Part shown: one piece after another, positions 10,986 to 21,028 of the stretch | Layout: each line of letters starts with the position of its first letter | Numbering within the stretch: position 1 is the stretch's first letter | Source of the DNA: Clostridia bacterium | GTDB lineage: Bacteria > Bacillota > Clostridia > Oscillospirales > CAG-272 | Reading direction: 5' to 3' | DNA length: 64,000 bases | Assembly (NCBI GenBank): GCA_017621475.1 | Contig: JAGATA010000041.1 | Location: 1-64,000 of the forward strand | Translations under genes and position numbers: made by a program | Notes under the pieces: generated by a model | The model's input: the letters and a program-made list of their open reading frames with translations, nothing else | Databases searched by the model: none | What the model was told of the DNA's origin: nothing

Positions 10986-12770
10986 TTATACGTATTTGCT
11001 TGCCTGCAGCCTAAAGAGCTCCGCATACTTTCCGTTCTGCTTCAAAAGCTCGAAGTGAGAGCCCTGTTCCACGATATGTCCGTCGCCGATAACGAGGATC
11101 TTATCGGCAAGGGTCGTGTTGGAGAGCCTGTGAGATATCGTAACGGAACTTTTGCCCTCGCTCAGGCGATAGAGCTTTTCAAATATCCTGTCCTCCGAGA
11201 TCGGGTCGAGCGCGGCGGAGGGCTCGTCAAGTATCATATATTCGCTATCCTTGAAGTAAGCGCGCGCAAGCCCAACGAGCTGCCATTGACCGCCAGAAAG
11301 GTCCTTGCCGTTGTCGGCGTAATATCTTCCCAGCACGCTGTCAAACCCGTCCTCCCAATCCTTTATAACGTCGCTTGCGCCGCTTATGTCGCAAGCCTTT
11401 TTCAGTTTTTCTTCGTTAAATCGCTCGCCAAAATCGGAAAGCGCAATAATCTCGCGCAGCGGCAAACAGTAAGTAACGTAGTCTTGGAAAAGCACCCCGA
11501 ATATTTTTCTTACGGCGTAAACGTCATACTCCCGGATATCCACCCCGTCAAGCTTTATGCACCCCTCCTCGGGATCGTAAAAACGGAACATCAGCTTTAT
11601 GATAGTGCTTTTTCCTGCGCCGTTAAGCCCTATAAGCCCTATCTTTTCGTGCGGTTCTATGGCAAAGGAGCAATTTTTCAGCACGTATTCTTCCGAGTTG
11701 GGATAGCGGAAGGATACGTTGCAAAACTCTATCTTAGGGTTGTTTGAAGGTTTAAGCGTGCCGCTTTTTTCGGTCTTCGGCTCCATATCCATAAACTCCT
11801 GCAGTTCCAAAAGCTTTGCGTTATCATTCAGAAAATGGTTTATCTTCTGCGTTAAAAGCCCCGCTTGCTCGCGCAGGCGCGTCACCATACTAAGGTTGTA
11901 TTGCAGATCTCCTATGCCGATAATACCGCCGAATACGTCGAACGCGGACATCGTAAGCACCAAAAATTCGCTCGATACGTTCACTATCGTGATAAGCGTG
12001 TTGAGGACGGAATGCTTTATATCCTCCGCTTTATTGATACGGTAGAGCTTTTTCCAAAGATCTTTATATTTCGCAATAAAATAATCTCCCGTGTTGTGAA
12101 GCTTTACCTCAAACTGAACGTCATTGTTAAAAAACACGTCGCGGTAATACTCCATTTTGCGGTTATCGCGCACCTGCTCCTTCTCCATACGAAGCCTTTT
12201 CTCCGTATGCTTTTTGTTATAGAGCATATACGGAACGAGAAGCAAGAGCGTTACAAGTCCCAGCCACCATCTATAAGCGCAAACGATGGCAAGCGTTGCG
12301 GCGACGTTGATAACGGCGGAAATTATATCGAACACGACCCACGACATATTCATCACAACAACAAAGCTGCCGCGTGTGTGCTTCACCTTATCGCCCATCT
12401 TTGCGGAATCGAAAAAGGAAAGGTCCATTTTCGCCGTTTTTTCCATCATCATTTTTTCCATATAAAATATCAGCTCATCCGTATAGCGGTCGTCAACGTA
12501 GCTGTCAAACCTGAAAAGCAGATGCGAGGAAAGCAGGAGCAAAATGTAAATGCAAAGGCAAAGGACGATATGCTCCGCATTTTGCCCAAAGCTTGTTATA
12601 CCGTTGAGTACCTCTTTCCAGAGCCAGATATTTAAAAGAGGCATTGCCGTTGTGGAAAGAAGGATGATAAGCTTCATCGAAAAATAAAATTTTGAAGCAA
12701 GAAAGCTTATTTTTATTCCGAACCATACGTTTTTTATGATCCCGGAGAAATTTTCTCTTTTATTGTTCAT
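10986..12770 (-). CDS. ABC exporter half-transporter (membrane domain plus ATPase), subunit B
   Basis: 594 residues. The first 320 residues hold about six membrane helices, including LIILLSTTAMPLLNIWLW, IVLCLCIYILLLLSSHLLF and WWLGLVTLLLLVPYMLY. The C-terminal ATPase has Walker A GLNGAGKST (near 380), signature LSGGQWQLVGLARA, Walker B YMILDEPSAALD and the switch His in TISHRLSN. It is a type IV exporter subunit. Its start overlaps the stop of subunit A by 11 nt, which argues for a heterodimer. Substrate is unknown; peptide, lipid or drug export are all possible. It is the last gene of the operon that begins with the ABC-class ATPase at 16600. Confidence 0.85.
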   Translation of the reverse strand: MNNKRENFSGIIKNVWFGIKISFLASKFYFSMKLIILLSTTAMPLLNIWLWKEVLNGITSFGQNAEHIVLCLCIYILLLLSSHLLFRFDSYVDDRYTDELIFYMEKMMMEKTAKMDLSFFDSAKMGDKVKHTRGSFVVVMNMSWVVFDIISAVINVAATLAIVCAYRWWLGLVTLLLLVPYMLYNKKHTEKRLRMEKEQVRDNRKMEYYRDVFFNNDVQFEVKLHNTGDYFIAKYKDLWKKLYRINKAEDIKHSVLNTLITIVNVSSEFLVLTMSAFDVFGGIIGIGDLQYNLSMVTRLREQAGLLTQKINHFLNDNAKLLELQEFMDMEPKTEKSGTLKPSNNPKIEFCNVSFRYPNSEEYVLKNCSFAIEPHEKIGLIGLNGAGKSTIIKLMFRFYDPEEGCIKLDGVDIREYDVYAVRKIFGVLFQDYVTYCLPLREIIALSDFGERFNEEKLKKACDISGASDVIKDWEDGFDSVLGRYYADNGKDLSGGQWQLVGLARAYFKDSEYMILDEPSAALDPISEDRIFEKLYRLSEGKSSVTISHRLSNTTLADKILVIGDGHIVEQGSHFELLKQNGKYAELFRLQASKYV

Positions 12771-14562
12771 ATCGATCCGCCTCCTTTGCCGTATATTTCT
12801 CTTTCTGGAGGTTATAGAGCCTTGCGTACATACCGCCGAGCGAGGTAAGCTCTTCGTGCGTGCCCTGCCCCGTTATTCTGCCGTTTTCCAGAACGATTAT
12901 CTTGTTTGATATACGCGAGCCCGATATTCTGTGGGATATCATTATGCCCGTTTTGCCGTCCGATATGGACTCGAAATTTTTAAAAATTCTATCCTCCGCC
13001 TGCGCGTCGAGCGCGGCGGAAGGCTCGTCGAAAATAACTATCTGTGCATTTTTGAAATATGCGCGCGAAAGCGCTATCTTCTGCCACTGCCCCTTGGAAA
13101 GCGCCGTTCCCTTATCGTCGAAATTTCGGCTCATAAAGGAATCAAGACCTTTTTCAAGCTTCGGCTGAATATCCCCGTAGATACCGCTTTGCAAAAGCAC
13201 GGCTTCGATCTCTTCGTCATTTTCCATTCTTTCAAGGGCGGAAAGCGAAACGTTCTCTCGGAGCGTAAGCGGATACTGCACAAAGCTTTGGAAAAGCGCG
13301 GAAAAGAGCTTTCGCACTTCTCTTATATCGTAATCCTCCATAGGATAGCCGTTTATAAGTATCCTTCCCGAATCGGGCGTGTAGAGCCCCAGCATCAGCT
13401 TTATGATGGTAGATTTGCCGGAGCCGTTTATGCCGACGATGGAAAGCTTATCACCCCTCTCAAGCGCAAAGGAAGCGCCCGAAAGTATATATTTTTCCGT
13501 ATGCGGATATTTAAAATACACGTTTTCAAAAGCGAGAGATTCAAAACGAGAAAGCACGCGCACGCCGTTTATATTTTCCGTCTTTTCTTCAAAAAACGCA
13601 AACATTTTGCCCATACACTCCGCAACACAGCAAAAAGCATCCGCGATAAACCACGTTATCTCCTGGAAGCGGTCCGTTATCGTTCCGGCGAAGCCGATGT
13701 AGAGCGCAACGTCACCGATGCCGATGGTCCCGTTTACCGCTTTAAAGATAACGTAAGCGATAAATATCATCTCTCCCGATCTTCGGAACAGCTCTATAAA
13801 AAGCTTTCCGCGCAACACCCTTTTCCCGAGCTTTTTGTTTTCTTTTATATAACGTTCCTTTTCTTCCTCGTACCTTCCCTTTATAGGGTCTGTAAGGTCA
13901 TACATCCTCACGTCCTTTGCAGGCCACGCATCCGTCAGCATCCAGCGGTAGTAGAATGATTTCCGAAGATTGGGCGCGTGCTCCCGCCTGAAATCATCCG
14001 TTTTTCGGCAGTAATACTCGTTAAAGATACAGTTCGGAACGGTAAGAACCAAAAGTATGATCGAAAATCCGAGCGAAAAGGAGGCAAGCGTCACAAAAAC
14101 AACGGAGAACGAATAGACGCATGATAACGTATCCGTAACGCGGAAGATAAGCTGTACTGCCACGTTTTTCGTATAGCGCACCTCCGCGACCGTATCCTTG
14201 CATTTTGAAGAATCTAGCATTCCCATAGGGAGCGCGGAAAGTTTTTCTGCAAGGCGGCATTCGTAAAGGTGCTGTGCTTTTTTTGTGATAGTGCTTCTTG
14301 TAAGGCTTTGCGCGGACACAACGCCGCGGTTCAATACCACGGCAAGGCCGTAAAGAAGCACAAAAAGCAATATTTTTTCAATGTCAGGTGCTTCGTGAGT
14401 CAAAGCATCCAAAATATATTTGAGCAAAAAAGCCGTCAAAAGCGGAAACGAGGTCCTGACCGTCTTTAACGCAAAATCAATAAATATCAAAAACCTGCTT
14501 GAACTGAATATAAGATCCCAAGAATATGCCACGGATCTTGCCGTAAGTTTTATATTATTCAT
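12760..14562 (-). CDS. ABC exporter half-transporter, subunit A with altered signature motif
   Basis: 600 residues with about six N-terminal membrane helices (LLFVLLYGLAVVLNRGVV, SFSVVFVTLASFSLGFSIIL and others). The ATPase domain has Walker A GINGSGKST, Walker B QIVIFDEPSAALD and the switch His in MISHRISG. Its signature reads LSKGQWQKIALSRA, with Lys replacing the second Gly of LSGGQ. A degenerate signature in one subunit and a canonical one in the partner at 12770 is typical of asymmetric heterodimeric exporters. The ATG at 14562 follows GGGGGTGAGG at 5 nt; a TTG five codons earlier is not favoured. The XRE gene ends 15 nt upstream. Confidence 0.85.
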   Translation of the reverse strand: MNNIKLTARSVAYSWDLIFSSSRFLIFIDFALKTVRTSFPLLTAFLLKYILDALTHEAPDIEKILLFVLLYGLAVVLNRGVVSAQSLTRSTITKKAQHLYECRLAEKLSALPMGMLDSSKCKDTVAEVRYTKNVAVQLIFRVTDTLSCVYSFSVVFVTLASFSLGFSIILLVLTVPNCIFNEYYCRKTDDFRREHAPNLRKSFYYRWMLTDAWPAKDVRMYDLTDPIKGRYEEEKERYIKENKKLGKRVLRGKLFIELFRRSGEMIFIAYVIFKAVNGTIGIGDVALYIGFAGTITDRFQEITWFIADAFCCVAECMGKMFAFFEEKTENINGVRVLSRFESLAFENVYFKYPHTEKYILSGASFALERGDKLSIVGINGSGKSTIIKLMLGLYTPDSGRILINGYPMEDYDIREVRKLFSALFQSFVQYPLTLRENVSLSALERMENDEEIEAVLLQSGIYGDIQPKLEKGLDSFMSRNFDDKGTALSKGQWQKIALSRAYFKNAQIVIFDEPSAALDAQAEDRIFKNFESISDGKTGIMISHRISGSRISNKIIVLENGRITGQGTHEELTSLGGMYARLYNLQKEKYTAKEADRYEQ

Positions 14563-14577
14563 AGGCCTCACCCCCAA

Positions 14578-14790
14578 TCACTCCGCGCTTCCTTCAAAGA
14601 AATCGTCCACGCGGCATTCCAATATTTTTGCAAGACGGGGCAGGAAGATTATATCGGGATAGCATTTTTCCTGCTCCCATTTGCAAACGGCTTGTGCGGA
14701 AACGCCGATGAGCCTTCCGAAATCATTAAGTGAAAGGGCGTTTTTGCTTCTGTAAGACTTTATTTTTTCTGCAATGGTAATTTTCATCAT
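14578..14790 (-). CDS. XRE-family regulator inside the ABC operon
   Basis: 70 residues, essentially one HTH_3 domain: IAEKIKSYRSKNALSLNDFG, then IGVSAQAVCKWEQEKCYPDI, then IFLPRLAKILECRVDDFFEG. The SQAxxKWE turn and the YPDI tail are typical of DNA-binding XRE proteins. Its ribosome site (AAGGAGG) overlaps the end of the ABC-class ATPase gene upstream (stop at 14798-14800), so it is translated from the same mRNA. A repressor encoded between the ATPase and the exporter probably regulates the whole unit. Two in-frame ATGs (14790, 14787) are equally possible starts. Confidence 0.8.
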   Translation of the reverse strand: MMKITIAEKIKSYRSKNALSLNDFGRLIGVSAQAVCKWEQEKCYPDIIFLPRLAKILECRVDDFFEGSAE

Positions 14791-14797
14791 ATCTGCA

Positions 14798-16600
14798 TCA
14801 CGCCTCCTTCAAAAATTTTATCTTTCTCATACGGTTGATAAGCGCGAAAAGCTCCTGCTTGCGCGGAAGATCGAGAAACCTTTCGCAAGTGGTGAAGAAC
14901 GCGGAATAGAGAATATCTATTCCCTCCTTCTCCGTTTTTTCGTACATATCATCTATCTTTTTGCAAATGTCAACCACGTTATCCTTGTTTGAAAGCTCAA
15001 GATAACGGAGCATAAAGCCGAGCGTGTCGAGCTGACGCGCAGAGATGACGTCGTGCAATCCGCGCACGTCTATCCTCTCGTCCCCGATAAGGATAAAGCC
15101 CATGTCGGAAACCTCCAGCTTTTCCGTGCCGCTTCCCTCCGGGTAGGAGGAAAATCCATCGGCGTAGAGCGTTCTGCCCTGCGCCCAGTTTGCGCCCTCC
15201 GGGAACTGCGGTGCAGAGCCGCGCAAGGCACATATATCCTTTGCTCTTGCCGTAACGTCGTGTATAAGGTAATCCTCCATCAGATAGACCCTGTCCGCAA
15301 CGGAAAGGTATTCGCCGCTTCCGCCGATAACAAGAATGGTGGAAACGCCGCGAGCAAGGAAAAGCTCGTTCACTCTGTCCGTAAACGGCGTTATGGGCTC
15401 TTTTTCGATAAGCTCCTTCATCATACCGTCGCGGATCATAAAGTTCGTGGCACTCCTATCCTCGTCTATAAGAAGAAGCTTTGCGCCCACGTCAACGGCT
15501 TCCATAATATTTGCCGCCTGGGAAGTAGAGCCCGATGCGTGGTCAGTGGAAAAATCCGCCGTGTCCCCGCCGGGGAGCCACTTTATAAAAGGCGAAATAT
15601 TTACGTGTTTTACGCTTCGCCCGTCCTCAGCGGAGATGGTCACGGCGCTTTCGTCCGTGATGCAAAGCTCGCGGCCGTCCCCGAAAACGTGGTCGTATAT
15701 TCCCGCGGAAATGGCATCGAGCAGCGTGGATTTTCCCGAATAGCCGCCGCCCGTTATAACGGTAACGCCTTTTTTGATACCCATACCGCGCACACCGCAT
15801 ATCTCTATCTCGTCGTCGGGCGTGGACTTGAACGGCACGGCGTCGAGCATAGGAAGGTCAGTTCCCTCGGCACGCGGCAATATGCTGCCGTTGGCAACGA
15901 AAGCGCAATATTCGCTCCCTTTAAGGCTTTTGCGAATGTCGCTCTGTTTTCTTGCAAGCGATATGCTCGCTTCAAGCGCGCCACCGTCAAAATTCATTAT
16001 AAAGCGATCGACCGCATCGGGCAGGTCGCGGCAGAGCATCTGCACCGTTTTGCGGAGCTTCTTTTTGGGAAGCTGGACCTGCAACCTTATGCAAAGGCAC
16101 ATAAGCGGCGGGCGAGAAACTCCGTCATTCAAAAGTACAACTTCCGAGCCGCGCAAATATCTGTAATCCTTCTGCGGGCAAAGCCCGAAGTACGCCGTGT
16201 TGCGCTTCAGCACCTCGCCGCCGGGGCGGCACAAATAATATTTTCCGTTTTCGTTATCTGGTCGGCTTCTGTTATAAAGCTCCTCGTTAAGCTCCTCGAT
16301 GTATTTTCCGAAGGCGCGAAGGCAAAAGTCCGCCGCCGCGGTCTTCATATCTGCCTCCATCGTATCGATACTGAGCATATCGCAGGGTATGCTTATAGTC
16401 ACGGTCGGCTTATCCTGCGCCAGCTTGTGCGTTCCCGTTATCTGAAAACCTATTCTTTCGTTATAATAAGTCGGGTTATATTCGTCCACAGGGTCCATAT
16501 CATATGCCGGATCGTGAACGAGCATATAACCCTCATACATTTCCTTGTACGTTGTTGTACTTGTTTCCATAGCCAATAATTTGTTTTTTAATCTCTTCAT
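14798..16600 (-). CDS. Predicted ATPase of the ABC class (PF09818/MRB1590-like), not a transporter subunit
   Basis: 600 residues, soluble. Residues about 1-230 form the family's N-terminal domain (YYNERIGFQITGTHKLAQD, PCDMLSIDTMEADMKTAAAD). The ATPase core follows with Walker A GGGYSGKSTLLDAI (near 290), a Ser/Thr-rich stretch DHASGSTSQAANIMEA in place of LSGGQ, and a Walker B-like LLLIDEDRSATNFMIRD. This arrangement is diagnostic of the bacterial ABC_ATPase family whose trypanosomal relative MRB1590 acts in RNA editing; bacterial function is unknown. The ATG at 16600 is favoured because AAGAGGGG is 6 nt away, while the ATG at 16606 abuts it. An overlapping 40-codon frame starts upstream at 16655. 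It is the first large gene of the exporter operon. Confidence 0.85.
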   Translation of the reverse strand: MKRLKNKLLAMETSTTTYKEMYEGYMLVHDPAYDMDPVDEYNPTYYNERIGFQITGTHKLAQDKPTVTISIPCDMLSIDTMEADMKTAAADFCLRAFGKYIEELNEELYNRSRPDNENGKYYLCRPGGEVLKRNTAYFGLCPQKDYRYLRGSEVVLLNDGVSRPPLMCLCIRLQVQLPKKKLRKTVQMLCRDLPDAVDRFIMNFDGGALEASISLARKQSDIRKSLKGSEYCAFVANGSILPRAEGTDLPMLDAVPFKSTPDDEIEICGVRGMGIKKGVTVITGGGYSGKSTLLDAISAGIYDHVFGDGRELCITDESAVTISAEDGRSVKHVNISPFIKWLPGGDTADFSTDHASGSTSQAANIMEAVDVGAKLLLIDEDRSATNFMIRDGMMKELIEKEPITPFTDRVNELFLARGVSTILVIGGSGEYLSVADRVYLMEDYLIHDVTARAKDICALRGSAPQFPEGANWAQGRTLYADGFSSYPEGSGTEKLEVSDMGFILIGDERIDVRGLHDVISARQLDTLGFMLRYLELSNKDNVVDICKKIDDMYEKTEKEGIDILYSAFFTTCERFLDLPRKQELFALINRMRKIKFLKEA

Positions 16601-16655
16601 GGGCATCCCCTCTTTCTTTTTTCAAAAATGATGTAAAAGTTATAATATAATTCAT
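16533..16655 (-). CDS. 40-codon overlapping upstream frame at the start of the ABC-class ATPase gene
   Basis: The ATG at 16655 has a strong AAAGGAG ribosome site, 7 nt away. The peptide starts MNYIITFTSFLKKERG, and its frame runs 68 nt into the ATPase gene before stopping at 16533. The ATPase ribosome site (AAGAGGGG) lies inside this frame, so ribosomes reading the short frame would cover or clear it. This is the geometry of a translational leader or coupling ORF. Whether the peptide itself has a role is unknown; chance remains possible, but the ribosome site is better than that of the ATPase gene. Confidence 0.45.
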   Translation of the reverse strand: MNYIITFTSFLKKERGDAHEEIKKQIIGYGNKYNNVQGNV

Positions 16656-16720
16656 AAAAAATTCTCCTTTCAAGCTTCCGGATTTTCCGTTATGACTTAT
16701 ATTAAAGGGGCGTTTCCACG

Positions 16721-16750
16721 AAAAACAAAAAGCACCCTCTTCGGGTGCTT
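16721..16750 (-). terminator. Second intrinsic terminator in the leader of the ATPase operon
   Basis: AAGCACCC and GGGTGCTT pair around a 5-nt loop; on the minus strand a TTTTTGTTTTT run follows. It lies between the leader peptide and the 40-codon frame. Confidence 0.75.
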
Positions 16751-16756
16751 TCGCAA

Positions 16757-16850
16757 ACAGATCCATACGGGAATTACGTACCTCTCCTTATCAGCCGCAA
16801 ATCATTCCTTGCCCTCAAGGGGAAGGCTTACGTTCAAGGTAAATTCCCAT
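16757..16850 (-). promoter_or_regulatory. Structured leader segment between the two terminators
   Basis: On the minus strand GGGAATTTACC near the start and GGTACGTAATTCCC near the end can pair (GGGAATT with AATTCCC, ACC with GGT). They enclose a smaller hairpin, CCTTCCCC with GGGCAAGG, which resembles repeat family R1. This is untranslated structure; the ribosome-site-like AAGGAGAGG in it is not followed by a well-spaced start. Confidence 0.35.
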
Positions 16851-16853
16851 AAC

Positions 16854-16880
16854 AAAAAAACACACCCGAGATCGGATGTG
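16854..16880 (-). terminator. First intrinsic terminator (attenuator hairpin) after the 17-codon leader
   Basis: On the minus strand CACATCCGA pairs with TCGGGTGTG and a run of seven T follows. The left arm ACATCCGAT is also perfectly complementary to ATCGGATGT inside the leader peptide coding sequence (16945-16937), so two mutually exclusive structures are possible. Confidence 0.8.
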
Positions 16881-16909
16881 CATAAAAAAGCTATGTGAAA
16901 ATACCTGCC

Positions 16910-16963
16910 TTAAAGTGTTTGCAGGCGATAAATATGACATCCGATAATATAAGTTTTGATCAT
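16910..16963 (-). CDS. 17-residue leader peptide with strong ribosome site
   Basis: AAAGGAGG lies 8 nt before the ATG at 16963. The peptide is MIKTYIIGCHIYRLQTL. A good sigma-A promoter (17008-17036) precedes it by about 45 nt and an intrinsic terminator follows its stop by about 30 nt. Its codons 7-9 contain ATCGGATGT, able to pair with the left arm of that terminator. This layout matches leader peptides of attenuated genes, where ribosome stalling or slow translation decides whether RNA polymerase continues. There is no run of a single regulatory amino acid, so amino-acid starvation sensing is not indicated; antibiotic-induced stalling is a better fit. A free-standing short peptide is the alternative. 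Confidence 0.6.
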   Translation of the reverse strand: MIKTYIIGCHIYRLQTL

Positions 16964-17007
16964 AATAATCGCCTCCTTTGGCTGTATTTGCATCTTACTG
17001 CACTTAC

Positions 17008-17036
17008 AGTATAGCACTTTCCCCTCCGATTGTCAA
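17008..17036 (-). promoter_or_regulatory. Sigma-A promoter of the leader/ABC-ATPase operon
   Basis: On the minus strand TTGACA (17036-17031) and TATACT (17013-17008) are exactly 17 nt apart. Confidence 0.8.
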
Positions 17037-17053
17037 TTATCGGAGGGGAAAGT
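17016..17053. repeat. 15-bp perfect palindrome spanning the -35 region
   Basis: ACTTTCCCCTCCGAT and ATCGGAGGGGAAAGT flank an 8-nt centre that contains the -35 box. On the transcript coming from the aconitase X genes it would fold as a hairpin without a clean T-tract. On DNA it is positioned as an operator. Both uses are possible. Confidence 0.65.
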
Positions 17054-17096: not shown

Positions 17097-17543
17097 TTAT
17101 TCTTCTACTTCAACCACGCCGTCTGCTTTTACGGTAACTTTCATTCCGTCCTTAACGTAGTTCAAAAATTCATCACCGAGGCAGTCCACAACGGGCATAG
17201 AAACGCCGTCCACCCAAACGTCCGCAAGGATAGCGCCTGCCGCCGCAAGGGAATCTATATGATTTGCGAAAAGCATACAAGCGGGGTTTCTTTCCATCGC
17301 GCAAGCGCAGTAGAGCACAAGGCCGCCCGTGGTAGAGCCGATGGTCTGCGGCAGGCACAAAGCCTTGCCGATAAGGGGCTTGCCATGGAGCTCTTCATTA
17401 TTCTGGTCGCCGCATTTTACCTCTTTATCTCCGAATTGGAGCGCCATCTGGAAAGATGCAAGCGTATTGAAGCCCTGCGTTGTTACAACAGCCTCTGCCG
17501 TTACTTCTCCGGGGGCTATTACTCTTCCTTTAAACTGTTTCAT
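17097..17543 (-). CDS. Aconitase X small (swivelling-domain) subunit
   Basis: 148 residues of the DUF126/AcnX swivelling-domain family. The conserved active-site loop is visible near residue 65-80 (LCLPQTIGSTTGGLVLY), where the Ser of GST binds substrate in characterised relatives, and the N-terminus FKGRVIAPGEVTAEAVVT is typical. The start overlaps the stop of the large subunit by one base, so the subunits are made together. AcnX enzymes are Fe-S dehydratases: known ones act on cis-3-hydroxy-L-proline (bacteria) or mevalonate 5-phosphate (archaea). The substrate here is open. Confidence 0.85.
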   Translation of the reverse strand: MKQFKGRVIAPGEVTAEAVVTTQGFNTLASFQMALQFGDKEVKCGDQNNEELHGKPLIGKALCLPQTIGSTTGGLVLYCACAMERNPACMLFANHIDSLAAAGAILADVWVDGVSMPVVDCLGDEFLNYVKDGMKVTVKADGVVEVEE

Positions 17544-18817
17544 TACTTTTTACCTCCTGTGATGGCTTTGAGAATTTCCGCGTCTGTATAGTATCTTGCG
17601 CTGGTGTATGTGCGAAGCTTATTGGAGGATGTTATAACAGGCATCTTCTTGCAAAGCGGATTGTTCATATACATAAGCGGGCAGATATACGACGTAATAA
17701 CGCCCGTTGCCTTAAGTCTTTCAGCATATTCTGTCTTTTCAAACGCCTCAAGAACCTTGGGGGCAGCTGTAAGCACCGTGGGAATGCAAACTTTCTTGCC
17801 ACCGTTTTCTTTAAGGGAGGCTTCTATCTTATCCGTCCAATCCTTGAGCTGTTCAAGGGAGAGGTGAGGGCAGCCAACAAAGCAAAGCTTTGGTGCGGCA
17901 TCGGGATCTTTCCAAATAACGGGGTAATTTTTCTGAACTCTTTCAAGTTCCGCATCGTCAATGATATATTCTTTCGCACCCTCTGAGATAAGCTTTTCGC
18001 CAAGCTCGCACGCTTCGGGAGTGAGGTTTTCGATGTGGTAAAGACCAACAGCGCCGTTGGAAGCTGTTGCCGCACCGAAATCTTTAAGGTAAGCACAAGC
18101 GGCATCGTTAAGCTCTGTGCCGATCCACTTATCAAGACCCACAACGTAAGGAACGTCTTCCATAACCTTCATACCGATGGCAGAACCGAGGAGCTGTGCT
18201 TCGGGCTTCTTCGTTGTGTTTACTTTAACTACCCAAGTAGCTTTTCTGCCCTCGTCTGTGAGAAGTCCGAAATAAGGAACGTAGCCGACGATAGAGCCCA
18301 TAATATCTATAATACCGGAGTTACGGTTGCATCTTGCGCCGAGAACGGAGTTTGCGTAAACTACAGCACTTGATTCCGCCCAGGAAAGCACATCGCCTTT
18401 CTGTGGCTTGTTGCCCATTTCGTCCATATAGCAGGTGCAGGAGAACGCATCCTTATCCATAAGTCCGAGCTTTTCAAGCTGTTCTTCGTAAAAATCCTGC
18501 TTTGTGTACATAAATTTGTTGAACACAAGGTTTTGGAGGAAGTTTGCGGGAACGTTTTTATCAAGAGGTCTTGGGTCAACGGAGAATTTCTGTCCGCTTG
18601 CCACACCTGCGTCAAGGAGCTTTTGCATAAGATCATACACAGGGGACATTACTTTAAGACCGAATGAAGTTACAAGGTGGTTGTATTTTGACGTGATGGG
18701 TACGAGCTTTTCCGCTTCAAAAGCGTCGCCGTACATAACGAGCGTTTTCATTACCTTGGCAAGGGTCTCGCCCTTTTCGCCATCAAGTATAGCTTGCTGT
18801 TCTTTAGTAAGAATCAT
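17543..18817 (-). CDS. Aconitase X catalytic (large) subunit
   Basis: 424 residues of the DUF521/AcnX catalytic family. Signatures are YVPYFGLL, AESSAVVYANSVLGARCN (near 140-158), and three candidate Fe-S cysteines in SCTCYMDEM, FVGCPHLSLEQL and SYICPLMYMNN. Known AcnX proteins usually have ART/ARC-N in the ANSVxGAR loop, so Cys here fits. The enzyme should remove water from a hydroxy acid in the cytoplasm. A GGAAAGG site precedes the ATG at 18817, and the OYE-family gene ends 76 nt upstream, which makes a three-gene operon from the promoter at 21057. No proline-cycle or mevalonate gene is nearby to fix the substrate. Confidence 0.88.
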   Translation of the reverse strand: MILTKEQQAILDGEKGETLAKVMKTLVMYGDAFEAEKLVPITSKYNHLVTSFGLKVMSPVYDLMQKLLDAGVASGQKFSVDPRPLDKNVPANFLQNLVFNKFMYTKQDFYEEQLEKLGLMDKDAFSCTCYMDEMGNKPQKGDVLSWAESSAVVYANSVLGARCNRNSGIIDIMGSIVGYVPYFGLLTDEGRKATWVVKVNTTKKPEAQLLGSAIGMKVMEDVPYVVGLDKWIGTELNDAACAYLKDFGAATASNGAVGLYHIENLTPEACELGEKLISEGAKEYIIDDAELERVQKNYPVIWKDPDAAPKLCFVGCPHLSLEQLKDWTDKIEASLKENGGKKVCIPTVLTAAPKVLEAFEKTEYAERLKATGVITSYICPLMYMNNPLCKKMPVITSSNKLRTYTSARYYTDAEILKAITGGKK

Positions 18818-18893
18818 ATTAAATACCTTTCCTATAATTTAATTTTTGATATTCCAAAGCGTTTCCGAAGGAAACATATCGCTTCAATGAAGC

Positions 18894-20963
18894 TTACAGC
18901 TTCATACATACGTCCCAAGCGCCCCAAATAACCGTTCTGAGGTTGCCCACGGAAGCGGCATCGCCGATAACGTGAACGTTTTTGCCCTTGGAAACGATGG
19001 GCGCGGGGTTGTAGCCCACGGACATAATAACGGAATCCGCGGCAATATCGAAGGTCTTGCCGTCTTTATCTTTAACCGTAACCTTGCCCTCGCCTATCTC
19101 GCAAAGAGAGGTTTCAAGGTGAACGGGAACTTTGTTCGTTTTGAAGAAATCACGAAGGTAGCTTGTATTTGCAAGGCAGATGCCCTTTGTTGTGATAAGG
19201 TCATCCTGCATTTCCACGATAGTTGGCTTTTTGCCGTTGAGGTAAAGTTCGTATGCTATTTCACAGCCCGTAAGACCGCCGCCGATAACGGTAACGTTTT
19301 CGCCAACCTCTGCTTTGCCAAGGAGGAAATCTATGGCTTCGATAGCTGTGTCAGCGCCCTTAACGGGTATCTTCTTCGCGGTAGCACCCGTTGCAACGAT
19401 AATTTCATCGGCATCAAGTGCTTTTACGTCCGTAATTTCGGTGTTCATCTTCACATCGATGGGATATTTTGCAAGCTCACGTATGTACCACGCGATAAGC
19501 GCACGGTCCTTTTCTTTGAAGGAGGGGGACGCCGCCGCGATAAATACGCCGCCGAGCTTATCGCTCTTTTCGTAAAGAGTAACCTTGTGTCCGCGTTTGG
19601 AAAGGAGGATTGCGGCTTCCATACCGCCTATACCGCCGCCGATAACGGCTATCTTCTTCTGCTTCTTTGCAGGCTCTACGTAATATTTCTTTGACTGCAT
19701 CGTTTCCGGGTTGAGCGCACAGCGCGCAAGACCCATCGTATCTGTCAAGTCCTGCGTGTTTGCATGACCCTTGGAGGAGGAGAAATTAAAGCAACCTGCG
19801 TGACAGCAGATGCAAGGCTTAATGTCTTCTACCCTGTCTTCAATCATCTTCGTTACCCATTCGGGGTCAACGAGGAATTGGCGGGCAACACCCACAGCGT
19901 CTATTCTGCCGTCCGCAACGGCGGCAGCGCCAACCTCGGCATCCATTCTGCCCGCGCAGACAACGGGAATATCCACGAATTTCTTAATATGTGCAACATC
20001 GTCAAGGTTGCAGTTTTCGGGCATATACATCGGCGGATGAGCCCAGTACCAGGAGTCGTACGTGCCGTTATCCGCATTGAGCATATCGTAGCCCGCATCC
20101 TGAAGATATTTTGCGGCTTTTTCGGATTCTTCCATATTTCTGCCGACTTCTGTATATTCTTCGCCGGGCATAGCGCCTTCGCAGAAGCCTTTCATCTTGG
20201 ATTCTACGGAGTAGCGGAGCGAAACGGGAAAATCTTCGCCGCACGCTTCTTTTATAGCTTTTACAACGTCCGTTGCAAAGCGGTAGCGGTTTTCAAAGCT
20301 GCCGCCGTAATCGTCCGTACGCTTGTTGAAAAATTCTATTGCAAACTGGTCAAGGAGATAGCCCTCATGAACGGCGTGTACCTCTACGCCGTCAACGCCT
20401 GCATCTCGGCAGAGCTTCGCCGTCTTTGCGAACGCTTCTATAATTTCGTGAATCTGCTCCACGGTCATTTCGGGGCATTCAATATCGTGTGCCCAGCGGG
20501 ATTTCTGAGGGCTGGGGCTTGCAAGCTCGTGGGAAGTATCTATGATAGGTTTGATAAGCGCGCGAGTGAACTTGTTTTTGTGCAAGGGAGCAACAAGCTC
20601 CGTTATCGCCCAGGAACGGCCCATACCTGCCGTAAGCTGGATGAAGAGTTTTGCGCCTGTTTTGTGGAGCTCATCCATAAAAACTTTGAGTTCTTCAAAC
20701 ATTTTGGGGTTCTGCCAAAGCCACTTGCCCCAGAATGTGTCGCGCAGGGGCGCGATGCCGGGAATGATAAGTCCCACGTTATTTTTTGCTCGTTCAAGGA
20801 AAAGCTTTGCCGCCTCTTTATCGAAGTGGCAGCCGCCAAGCTCGAACCAACCGAAAAGCGAGGTTCCGCCCATAGGACACATAACGATGCGGTTCTTAAT
20901 CTCCACATTGCCTATCTTCCAAGGGGTAAACAACGCCTCGTATTTTTTGTCGATCTGATTCAT
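18894..20963 (-). CDS. NADH:flavin oxidoreductase / Old-Yellow-Enzyme family (2,4-dienoyl-CoA-reductase-like)
   Basis: 689 residues. Residues about 1-370 are the FMN-binding TIM barrel (LFTPWKIGNVEIKNRIVM; GVDGVEVHAVHEGYLLDQFA; NKRTDDYGGSFENRYRF). A 4Fe-4S cluster motif follows near 395-430 (CICCHAGCF ... ARCALNPE). The FAD/NAD domains contain KIAVIGGGIGGMEAAILLS and NVTVIGGGLTGCEIAYEL. This three-cofactor layout matches FadH, trimethylamine dehydrogenase and BaiCD/BaiH, which move hydride from NAD(P)H to activated double bonds. As first gene before the aconitase X subunits, it probably acts on the dehydrated product or its precursor. The ATG at 20963 has GAAAGGAT upstream; a 10-codon extension lacks support. 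The electron acceptor is unknown. Confidence 0.85.
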   Translation of the reverse strand: MNQIDKKYEALFTPWKIGNVEIKNRIVMCPMGGTSLFGWFELGGCHFDKEAAKLFLERAKNNVGLIIPGIAPLRDTFWGKWLWQNPKMFEELKVFMDELHKTGAKLFIQLTAGMGRSWAITELVAPLHKNKFTRALIKPIIDTSHELASPSPQKSRWAHDIECPEMTVEQIHEIIEAFAKTAKLCRDAGVDGVEVHAVHEGYLLDQFAIEFFNKRTDDYGGSFENRYRFATDVVKAIKEACGEDFPVSLRYSVESKMKGFCEGAMPGEEYTEVGRNMEESEKAAKYLQDAGYDMLNADNGTYDSWYWAHPPMYMPENCNLDDVAHIKKFVDIPVVCAGRMDAEVGAAAVADGRIDAVGVARQFLVDPEWVTKMIEDRVEDIKPCICCHAGCFNFSSSKGHANTQDLTDTMGLARCALNPETMQSKKYYVEPAKKQKKIAVIGGGIGGMEAAILLSKRGHKVTLYEKSDKLGGVFIAAASPSFKEKDRALIAWYIRELAKYPIDVKMNTEITDVKALDADEIIVATGATAKKIPVKGADTAIEAIDFLLGKAEVGENVTVIGGGLTGCEIAYELYLNGKKPTIVEMQDDLITTKGICLANTSYLRDFFKTNKVPVHLETSLCEIGEGKVTVKDKDGKTFDIAADSVIMSVGYNPAPIVSKGKNVHVIGDAASVGNLRTVIWGAWDVCMKL

Positions 20964-21028
20964 AATAAGTTTATCCTTTCGTAGATATTTCAACCTGCAA
21001 AGTGTATAAATATAACAAATATATAAAT

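Follow-up and report, generated by a model that had tools for sequence, protein, structure and literature searches.

A conserved leader upstream of a PF09818 ATPase and ABC exporter operon of Clostridia, probably a ribosome-dependent attenuator

The operon and its leader

The window (the whole stretch of 64,000 nucleotides analysed here, from a Clostridia bacterium) carries an operon of four almost gapless genes on its minus strand. The first gene, which is the main target of the leader described below, encodes an ABC-class ATPase (14798-16606; PF09818 and MRB1590_C by Pfam; nearest solved structure, 5d6a). The match of its N-terminal region to ABC_N is below the cut-off. It is followed by a gene encoding a small Cro/C1-type HTH protein (14578-14790; Pfam), found 3′ of the ATPase gene in many relatives, and by the genes of two ABC exporter subunits. 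Subunit 1 (12760-14577; Pfam) has orthologues accompanying the ATPase at three other loci (L144, L167, L173); subunit 2 (10986-12770) was assigned by Pfam and by comparison of relatives. The genes located 5′ of the leader (17097-20993) encode the small and large subunits of aconitase X and an old-yellow-enzyme-type reductase; they are unrelated to the leader in relatives.

The leader, present in one copy in this genome, is also on the minus strand. A consensus scan found a near-consensus promoter (17008-17036; TTGACA at 17036, 17 nt, TATACT at 17008; 11/12 match), and promoter-like boxes are found at the matching place in most leaders of relatives. The -35 box lies in the loop of a perfect 15-bp inverted repeat (ACTTTCCCCTCCGAT/ATCGGAGGGGAAAGT; 17016-17053). 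This repeat shows compensating changes in G001 and was not seen in G004; it could be an operator or a plus-strand terminator.

The promoter is followed by a Shine-Dalgarno (SD) sequence (AAAGGAGG; 16972-16979) and by an upstream open reading frame (uORF) of 17 codons plus stop (16910-16963) encoding the leader peptide MIKTYIIGCHIYRLQTL. Both the SD and the start of the uORF are kept in relatives. The 5′ arm of a first hairpin, hairpin A (AGGCGAT; 16968-16974), overlaps the SD, and its 3′ arm (ATCGCCT; 16923-16929) corresponds to codons 12-14; this hairpin is the putative anti-antiterminator. Two other segments lie within the uORF: a (in codons 2-6; the stretch ACTTATATT at 16946-16954 corresponds to about codons 4-6) and b (ATCGGATGT; 16937-16945; codons 7-9). 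Segment b, the 5′ strand of the putative antiterminator, is exactly complementary over 9 bp (16945-16937 with 16879-16871) to segment b′ (ACATCCGAT; 16871-16879), which is both the left arm of the intrinsic terminator T1 (16860-16881; T run after the stem) and the 3′ strand of the antiterminator. The U-rich tracts 5′ of T1 resemble TTNTTT, the pause motif found in the vmlR leader (PMC9226507).

The right arm of T1 (segment c, TCGGGTGT; 16862-16869) is able to pair with the left arm (c′, GCACCCGA; 16748-16741) of a second terminator, T2 (16728-16752), which is kept in most relatives. The gap between T1 and T2 contains an inserted palindromic element (16768-16850) resembling a dispersed repeat: its core AAGCCTTCCCCTTGAGGGCAAGG matches many sites in genomes of the genus, and the T1-T2 spacers of relatives differ. 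Downstream of T2, segment e (TTTTTCGT; 16718-16725) pairs with e′ (ACGGAAAA; 16683-16690), so that segment a′ (AATATAAGT; 16695-16703), complementary to segment a of the uORF, sits in a loop. The start of a 40-aa open reading frame, ORF2 (16533-16655), includes a sequence (AUGAAUUAUAUUA) that can pair with a′. ORF2 (MNYIITFTSFLKKERG...) overlaps the start of the ATPase gene, out of frame with it, perhaps for translational coupling; a similar ORF is found in several relatives and is missing in others.

The promoter, the 17-codon peptide, the intrinsic terminator and the 9-bp complementarity to codons 7-9 are thus all present as described in an earlier sequence-only reading of this locus. The observation is confirmed; the interpretation drawn from it is partly supported, with corrections given below. 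The RNA folding proposed there as a check is also favourable, the leader being more stable than shuffled sequences (z -2.75 over 151 nt; z -4.4 over 283 nt). That reading proposed a design with a single terminator: T1 is real, but T2, hairpin A, the palindromic insertion and ORF2 were missed, as was what is probably a layer of translational control.

Covariation, distribution and targets of the leader family

Every possible 7-bp helix (n = 17,955) was ranked in a structure-blind alignment of 46 leaders. In addition, each strand was paired with the partner from its own leader and with partners from other genomes (own-versus-foreign test). These two approaches were used instead of plain mutual information on column pairs, which was too noisy. 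T1 ranks 1st, c:c′ 6th, b:b′ 7th and hairpin A 10th. The own-versus-foreign p-values, which count related genomes as separate observations, are 2e-9 for T1, 2.4e-7 for b:b′ (31/36), 5.4e-6 for a:a′ (30/36), 0.001 for T2, 0.001 for e:e′, 0.0036 for hairpin A and 0.021 for c:c′, the last pairing being partly a by-product of the likeness between T1 and T2; two control pairings gave 0.81 and 0.85. A further candidate, d:d′ (right arm of T2 with GGAAAGC), is unsupported (p = 0.14).

The changes are compensatory. The CGGATG:CATCCG core of b:b′ in the window is CGAATG:CATTCG in G002 and G003 (G-C to A-U), and GGCGAT:ATCGCC of hairpin A is GGTGAC:GTCACC in G034. As shown by sequence comparison, hairpin A, b:b′, T1, a:a′ and e:e′ are held by compensatory change. 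The family thus has intrinsic terminators before the gene, a covarying antiterminator exclusive with a terminator and, as in vmlR-type leaders, a covarying anti-antiterminator that includes the start region of the uORF. The mutually exclusive pairings claimed by the sequence-only reading for a ribosome-controlled attenuator are therefore conserved and covarying among relatives. With regard to the comparison of relatives that it proposed, the pairings covary and the frame is open in 45/46 leaders, but the peptide sequence is unconserved beyond about codon 5.

A covariance model built on seven leaders was used on genomes of the order and of the family; matches were found in 33/394 and 67/395 genomes, respectively. 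A second model gave a few matches in other orders. Four weak matches (L073, L075, L076, L077) were left out: they resembled chance terminators, and the genes downstream were cellulosome-like or unrelated to transporters. A protein-first survey gave 80 named ATPase loci, mostly from herbivore-gut Clostridia, Oscillospiraceae and Lachnospiraceae; the leader is located 5′ of the ATPase gene in 64 of the 73 orthologues with enough flank. ATPase orthologues within the genus have the same leader, and the leader-gene linkage is kept across two or more orders. Searches of plasmid and phage DNA for the leader gave no match. The window leader and 12 related loci gave no match above the gathering threshold in Rfam release 15. 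Homologues with compensatory changes across dozens of genomes indicate, at the level of sequence, that the leader is more than a chance arrangement; the family, absent from Rfam, is new, although the kind of attenuator is known.

Other genes than that of the ATPase are found behind the leader. A Lsa-family ABC-F gene lies directly behind it in L058. In L104, the leader is followed by a decayed ATPase remnant (330-788) and then by an intact Lsa-family ABC-F gene, 458 nt downstream. Heterodimeric ABC exporters are found behind the leader at eight loci (L115, L125, L131, L133, L134, L138, L140, L225). L133 carries orthologues of the exporter pair of the window (56% and 73% identity) behind their own leader; in the same genome (G568), the ATPase and HTH genes are located behind a separate leader (L106). 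G568 and G021 (L084, L134) each have two leaders, one 5′ of the ATPase gene and the other 5′ of a heterodimeric ABC exporter. GNAT, methyltransferase and HTH genes are found behind lower-scoring or partly decayed leaders. A further subfamily of leaders (GTCGGATGCCATG-GTCGCC; L139, L141, L126, L136) is located 5′ of more typical PF09818 genes; in L139 and L141, the complementarity between uORF and spacer is apparently on a 20-bp scale (-28 to -32 kcal/mol).

Ribosome position, proposed mechanism and competing explanations

In 45/46 leaders, no stop codon interrupts the uORF frame up to and including hairpin A; the other two frames stay open in 39/92 cases. The b motif occurs in each of the three frames (25, 17 and 4 of the 46 leaders). 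It begins 16-20 nt from the start codon in 39/46, and most leaders have their stop codon 31-38 nt past the start of b. A 1-nt shift makes the peptides of the window and G004 diverge after codon 6 and leaves the RNA motif intact, and the peptide sequence past about codon 5 lacks conservation. A ribosome positioned at the start codon is expected to have its leading edge at this 16-20 nt spacing. By these comparisons, the conserved feature is the position of the ribosome, not the peptide sequence.

The effect of the ribosome was modelled by folding RNAs ending after b′ in which the stretch covered by a ribosome was masked, codon by codon. The mean probability of b:b′ is 1.00 when codon 1 is occupied, 0.95 for codon 2 and 0.00 for codons 5-12. 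This agrees with the start-codon geometry and supports the proposal of the sequence-only reading that early stalling is the permissive state. Its other claim, termination upon complete translation, is an oversimplification: the pairing is lost at codons 5-12 but returns near the stop codon, where a modelled ribosome frees the antiterminator again. Without a ribosome, the mean probability is 0.62, and in the window leader, with T1 incomplete, it is 1.00. Since b:b′ forms both without a ribosome and with one on the stop codon, the OFF state must come from the transit of ribosomes, from pausing or from kinetics. At equilibrium, T1 outcompetes b:b′ even when the start is masked; antitermination must therefore be kinetic. 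In these folding models, the dependence of the OFF state on transit, pausing or kinetics is the main gap of the attenuator model.

The leader is probably, on sequence evidence, an attenuator that depends on the ribosome, like those of vmlR and bmrBCD; it would sense ribosomes held on the start codon and be induced by drugs that stall them there. We infer the order of events, the drug trigger and the role of a:a′ as follows. In the OFF state, the ribosome site of the uORF would be hidden by hairpin A, T1 (b′:c) and T2 (c′:d) would fold, and transcription would end before the operon. In the ON state, the first ribosome would be held by an antibiotic on codons 1-2. It would cover the SD, blocking hairpin A and leaving b free just past its leading edge; b would then capture the left arm of T1 before the right arm is transcribed. 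The released right arm could capture the left arm of T2, and RNA polymerase would run on into the ATPase, HTH and exporter genes.

Segment a′ could add a translational lock and its release through alternative pairings: one with a, the other, present in many relatives, with the ribosome-binding site or start of the main gene or of ORF2. The long-range a:a′ helix (codons 2-6 of the uORF with 16703-16695, past T2) was not predicted. Lachnospiraceae have another a (CTTATTTAAGTCGG) and a matching a′ (CCGGCTTAAATAAG in L208) at a variable distance; in the second ATPase subfamily, GACGATTCTGTAT is matched by ATAGAATCGTC. In a blind search, the best spacer complement to codons 2-6 has a z below -2 in 22/67 leaders. 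In subfamily 2, a′ is able to pair with the uORF and with the gene SD (about -14 to -21 kcal/mol); for the ATPase-gene SD (GGACGAT), the value is about -14 to -18 kcal/mol. In the main subfamily, several leaders (L079, L084, L055, L098) show strong pairing of a′ with the beginning of ORF2 or of the gene, but this pairing is weak overall (p = 0.04). In this subfamily, a start-codon ribosome covers a, which excludes the simultaneous formation of a:a′. By analogy with vmlR, a:a′ may, with moderate confidence, be regarded as the release of a translational lock; the leader probably acts on translation as well as on transcription.

The vmlR leader of Bacillus subtilis (PMC9226507) shares with this family a uORF, an anti-antiterminator and an antiterminator overlapping the terminator. 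It also has an SD-sequestering structure opened by pairing in readthrough transcripts; the candidate counterpart here, the pairing of a′ with the ribosome-binding site of the main gene, is strong in subfamily 2 and weak in the main subfamily. The trigger of the vmlR leader has been shown experimentally to be the stalling of initiation by lincomycin or retapamulin (PMC9226507). It has a 3-codon uORF (MIN), one terminator and an ABC-F target (PMC9226507); the present family differs by a uORF of about 17 codons, usually two terminators, other sequences and a PF09818 ATPase as main target. The leader would work like a vmlR-type attenuator by a likeness of logic. In the bmrB-bmrCD system of B. subtilis, according to the available part of its description (PMC4191407), translation of a leader ORF also governs a terminator located 5′ of a heterodimeric multidrug ABC exporter; the inducers given there are lincomycin, erythromycin and chloramphenicol. 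The terminator lies within a longer leader ORF, and that part of the source does not describe a start-codon geometry, tandem terminators or an a:a′ helix. The inducers of the window leader are likely to be drugs trapping initiating ribosomes (lincosamides, pleuromutilins, streptogramin A).

The best surviving alternative, although an unlikely one, is a general attenuator of translation rate or starvation, opened by any early slowing (shortage of amino acid or charged tRNA, ppGpp, cold), without being a drug device. It agrees with a leader that reads only the position of the ribosome, for which any early stall is enough, and with a response of vmlR to (p)ppGpp reported in PMC9226507. Against it, no conserved codon or amino acid was found at positions 2-6 among the 46 leaders, and the leader peptides have no repeated or shared residue of the kind seen in amino-acid biosynthesis attenuators; there is no conserved residue to sense, and the sequence-only reading had noted the lack of a repeated one in the window peptide. 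Moreover, the targets are ABC-F ribosome protection proteins, exporters and GNATs, not biosynthesis genes. The sister leaders in front of Lsa ABC-F genes and of exporters favour the preference of that reading for drug over starvation sensing.

Sensing of the ermC/msrD type, in which a nascent-chain motif arrests a drug-bound ribosome, is very improbable. Such leaders are common 5′ of resistance genes, and many peptides of the family begin with M-x-x-Y-I or include RMSY-SP, but the peptide follows the RNA motif, which uses three frames, and the 1-nt shift separating the window and G004 peptides after codon 6 left that motif unchanged. No conserved arrest motif was found in the peptides. Peptide-specific stalling and amino-acid attenuation were both rejected, given the three frames and the lack of a conserved or repeated residue. 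Least probable of all is a constitutive leader whose terminators end a short RNA or upstream transcripts, with a separate operon promoter 3′ of T2: a weak promoter-like match (16673-16644; 10/12), though overlapping the ORF2 start, and the bidirectional look of the palindrome at 17053-17016 would fit it, but covarying alternative pairings, a conserved uORF and a leader that stays linked to its gene in two or more orders would not.

The PF09818 ATPase and the meaning of the leader

The protection given by Lsa proteins covers lincosamides, streptogramin A and pleuromutilins. These are drugs of a kind that stalls initiating ribosomes (PMC9226507); this and the Lsa targets are the indirect grounds on which drug sensing is proposed. 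The window locus shares its leader with the Lsa ABC-F genes of L058 and L104, the only ABC-F targets, but has no Lsa gene itself: its target is a PF09818 protein of a different ATPase fold (PF09818/MRB1590), not an ARE ABC-F. The P-loop and MRB1590_C domains of the target are common with the PF09818 ABC_ATPase/MRB1590 proteins (PDB 5d6a, 4yix). MRB1590 binds RNA; the structures of the ATPase family include PDB 5d6a. No bacterial function of a PF09818/MRB1590-type ATPase was described in the literature searched. Viral contigs gave no relative of the ATPase, and plasmids gave only distant PF09818 relatives (e.g. in S. epidermidis, beside MepB and transporter genes), which are uninformative.

Since the same leader is found on Lsa ABC-F genes and on ABC exporters, the PF09818 ATPase is nominated as an inducible antibiotic-response factor. 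By this analogy, it is possible that it is an unrecognised protein of antibiotic protection or antibiotic response. More tentatively, and with somewhat less than even confidence, it could represent a new class of drug-inducible protection factors acting on the ribosome or RNA in gut Clostridia, in parallel with ABC-F proteins, the leader family, which Lsa ABC-F genes and exporters also have, then being a sequence-independent sensor of start-codon stalls.

The leaders form a family of probable attenuators that sense ribosomes; it occurs in gut Clostridia and was uncatalogued until now. Their geometry points to a ribosome held on the start codon as the signal, whatever the peptide, and the leader may be usable as a tag in the search for more resistance genes.
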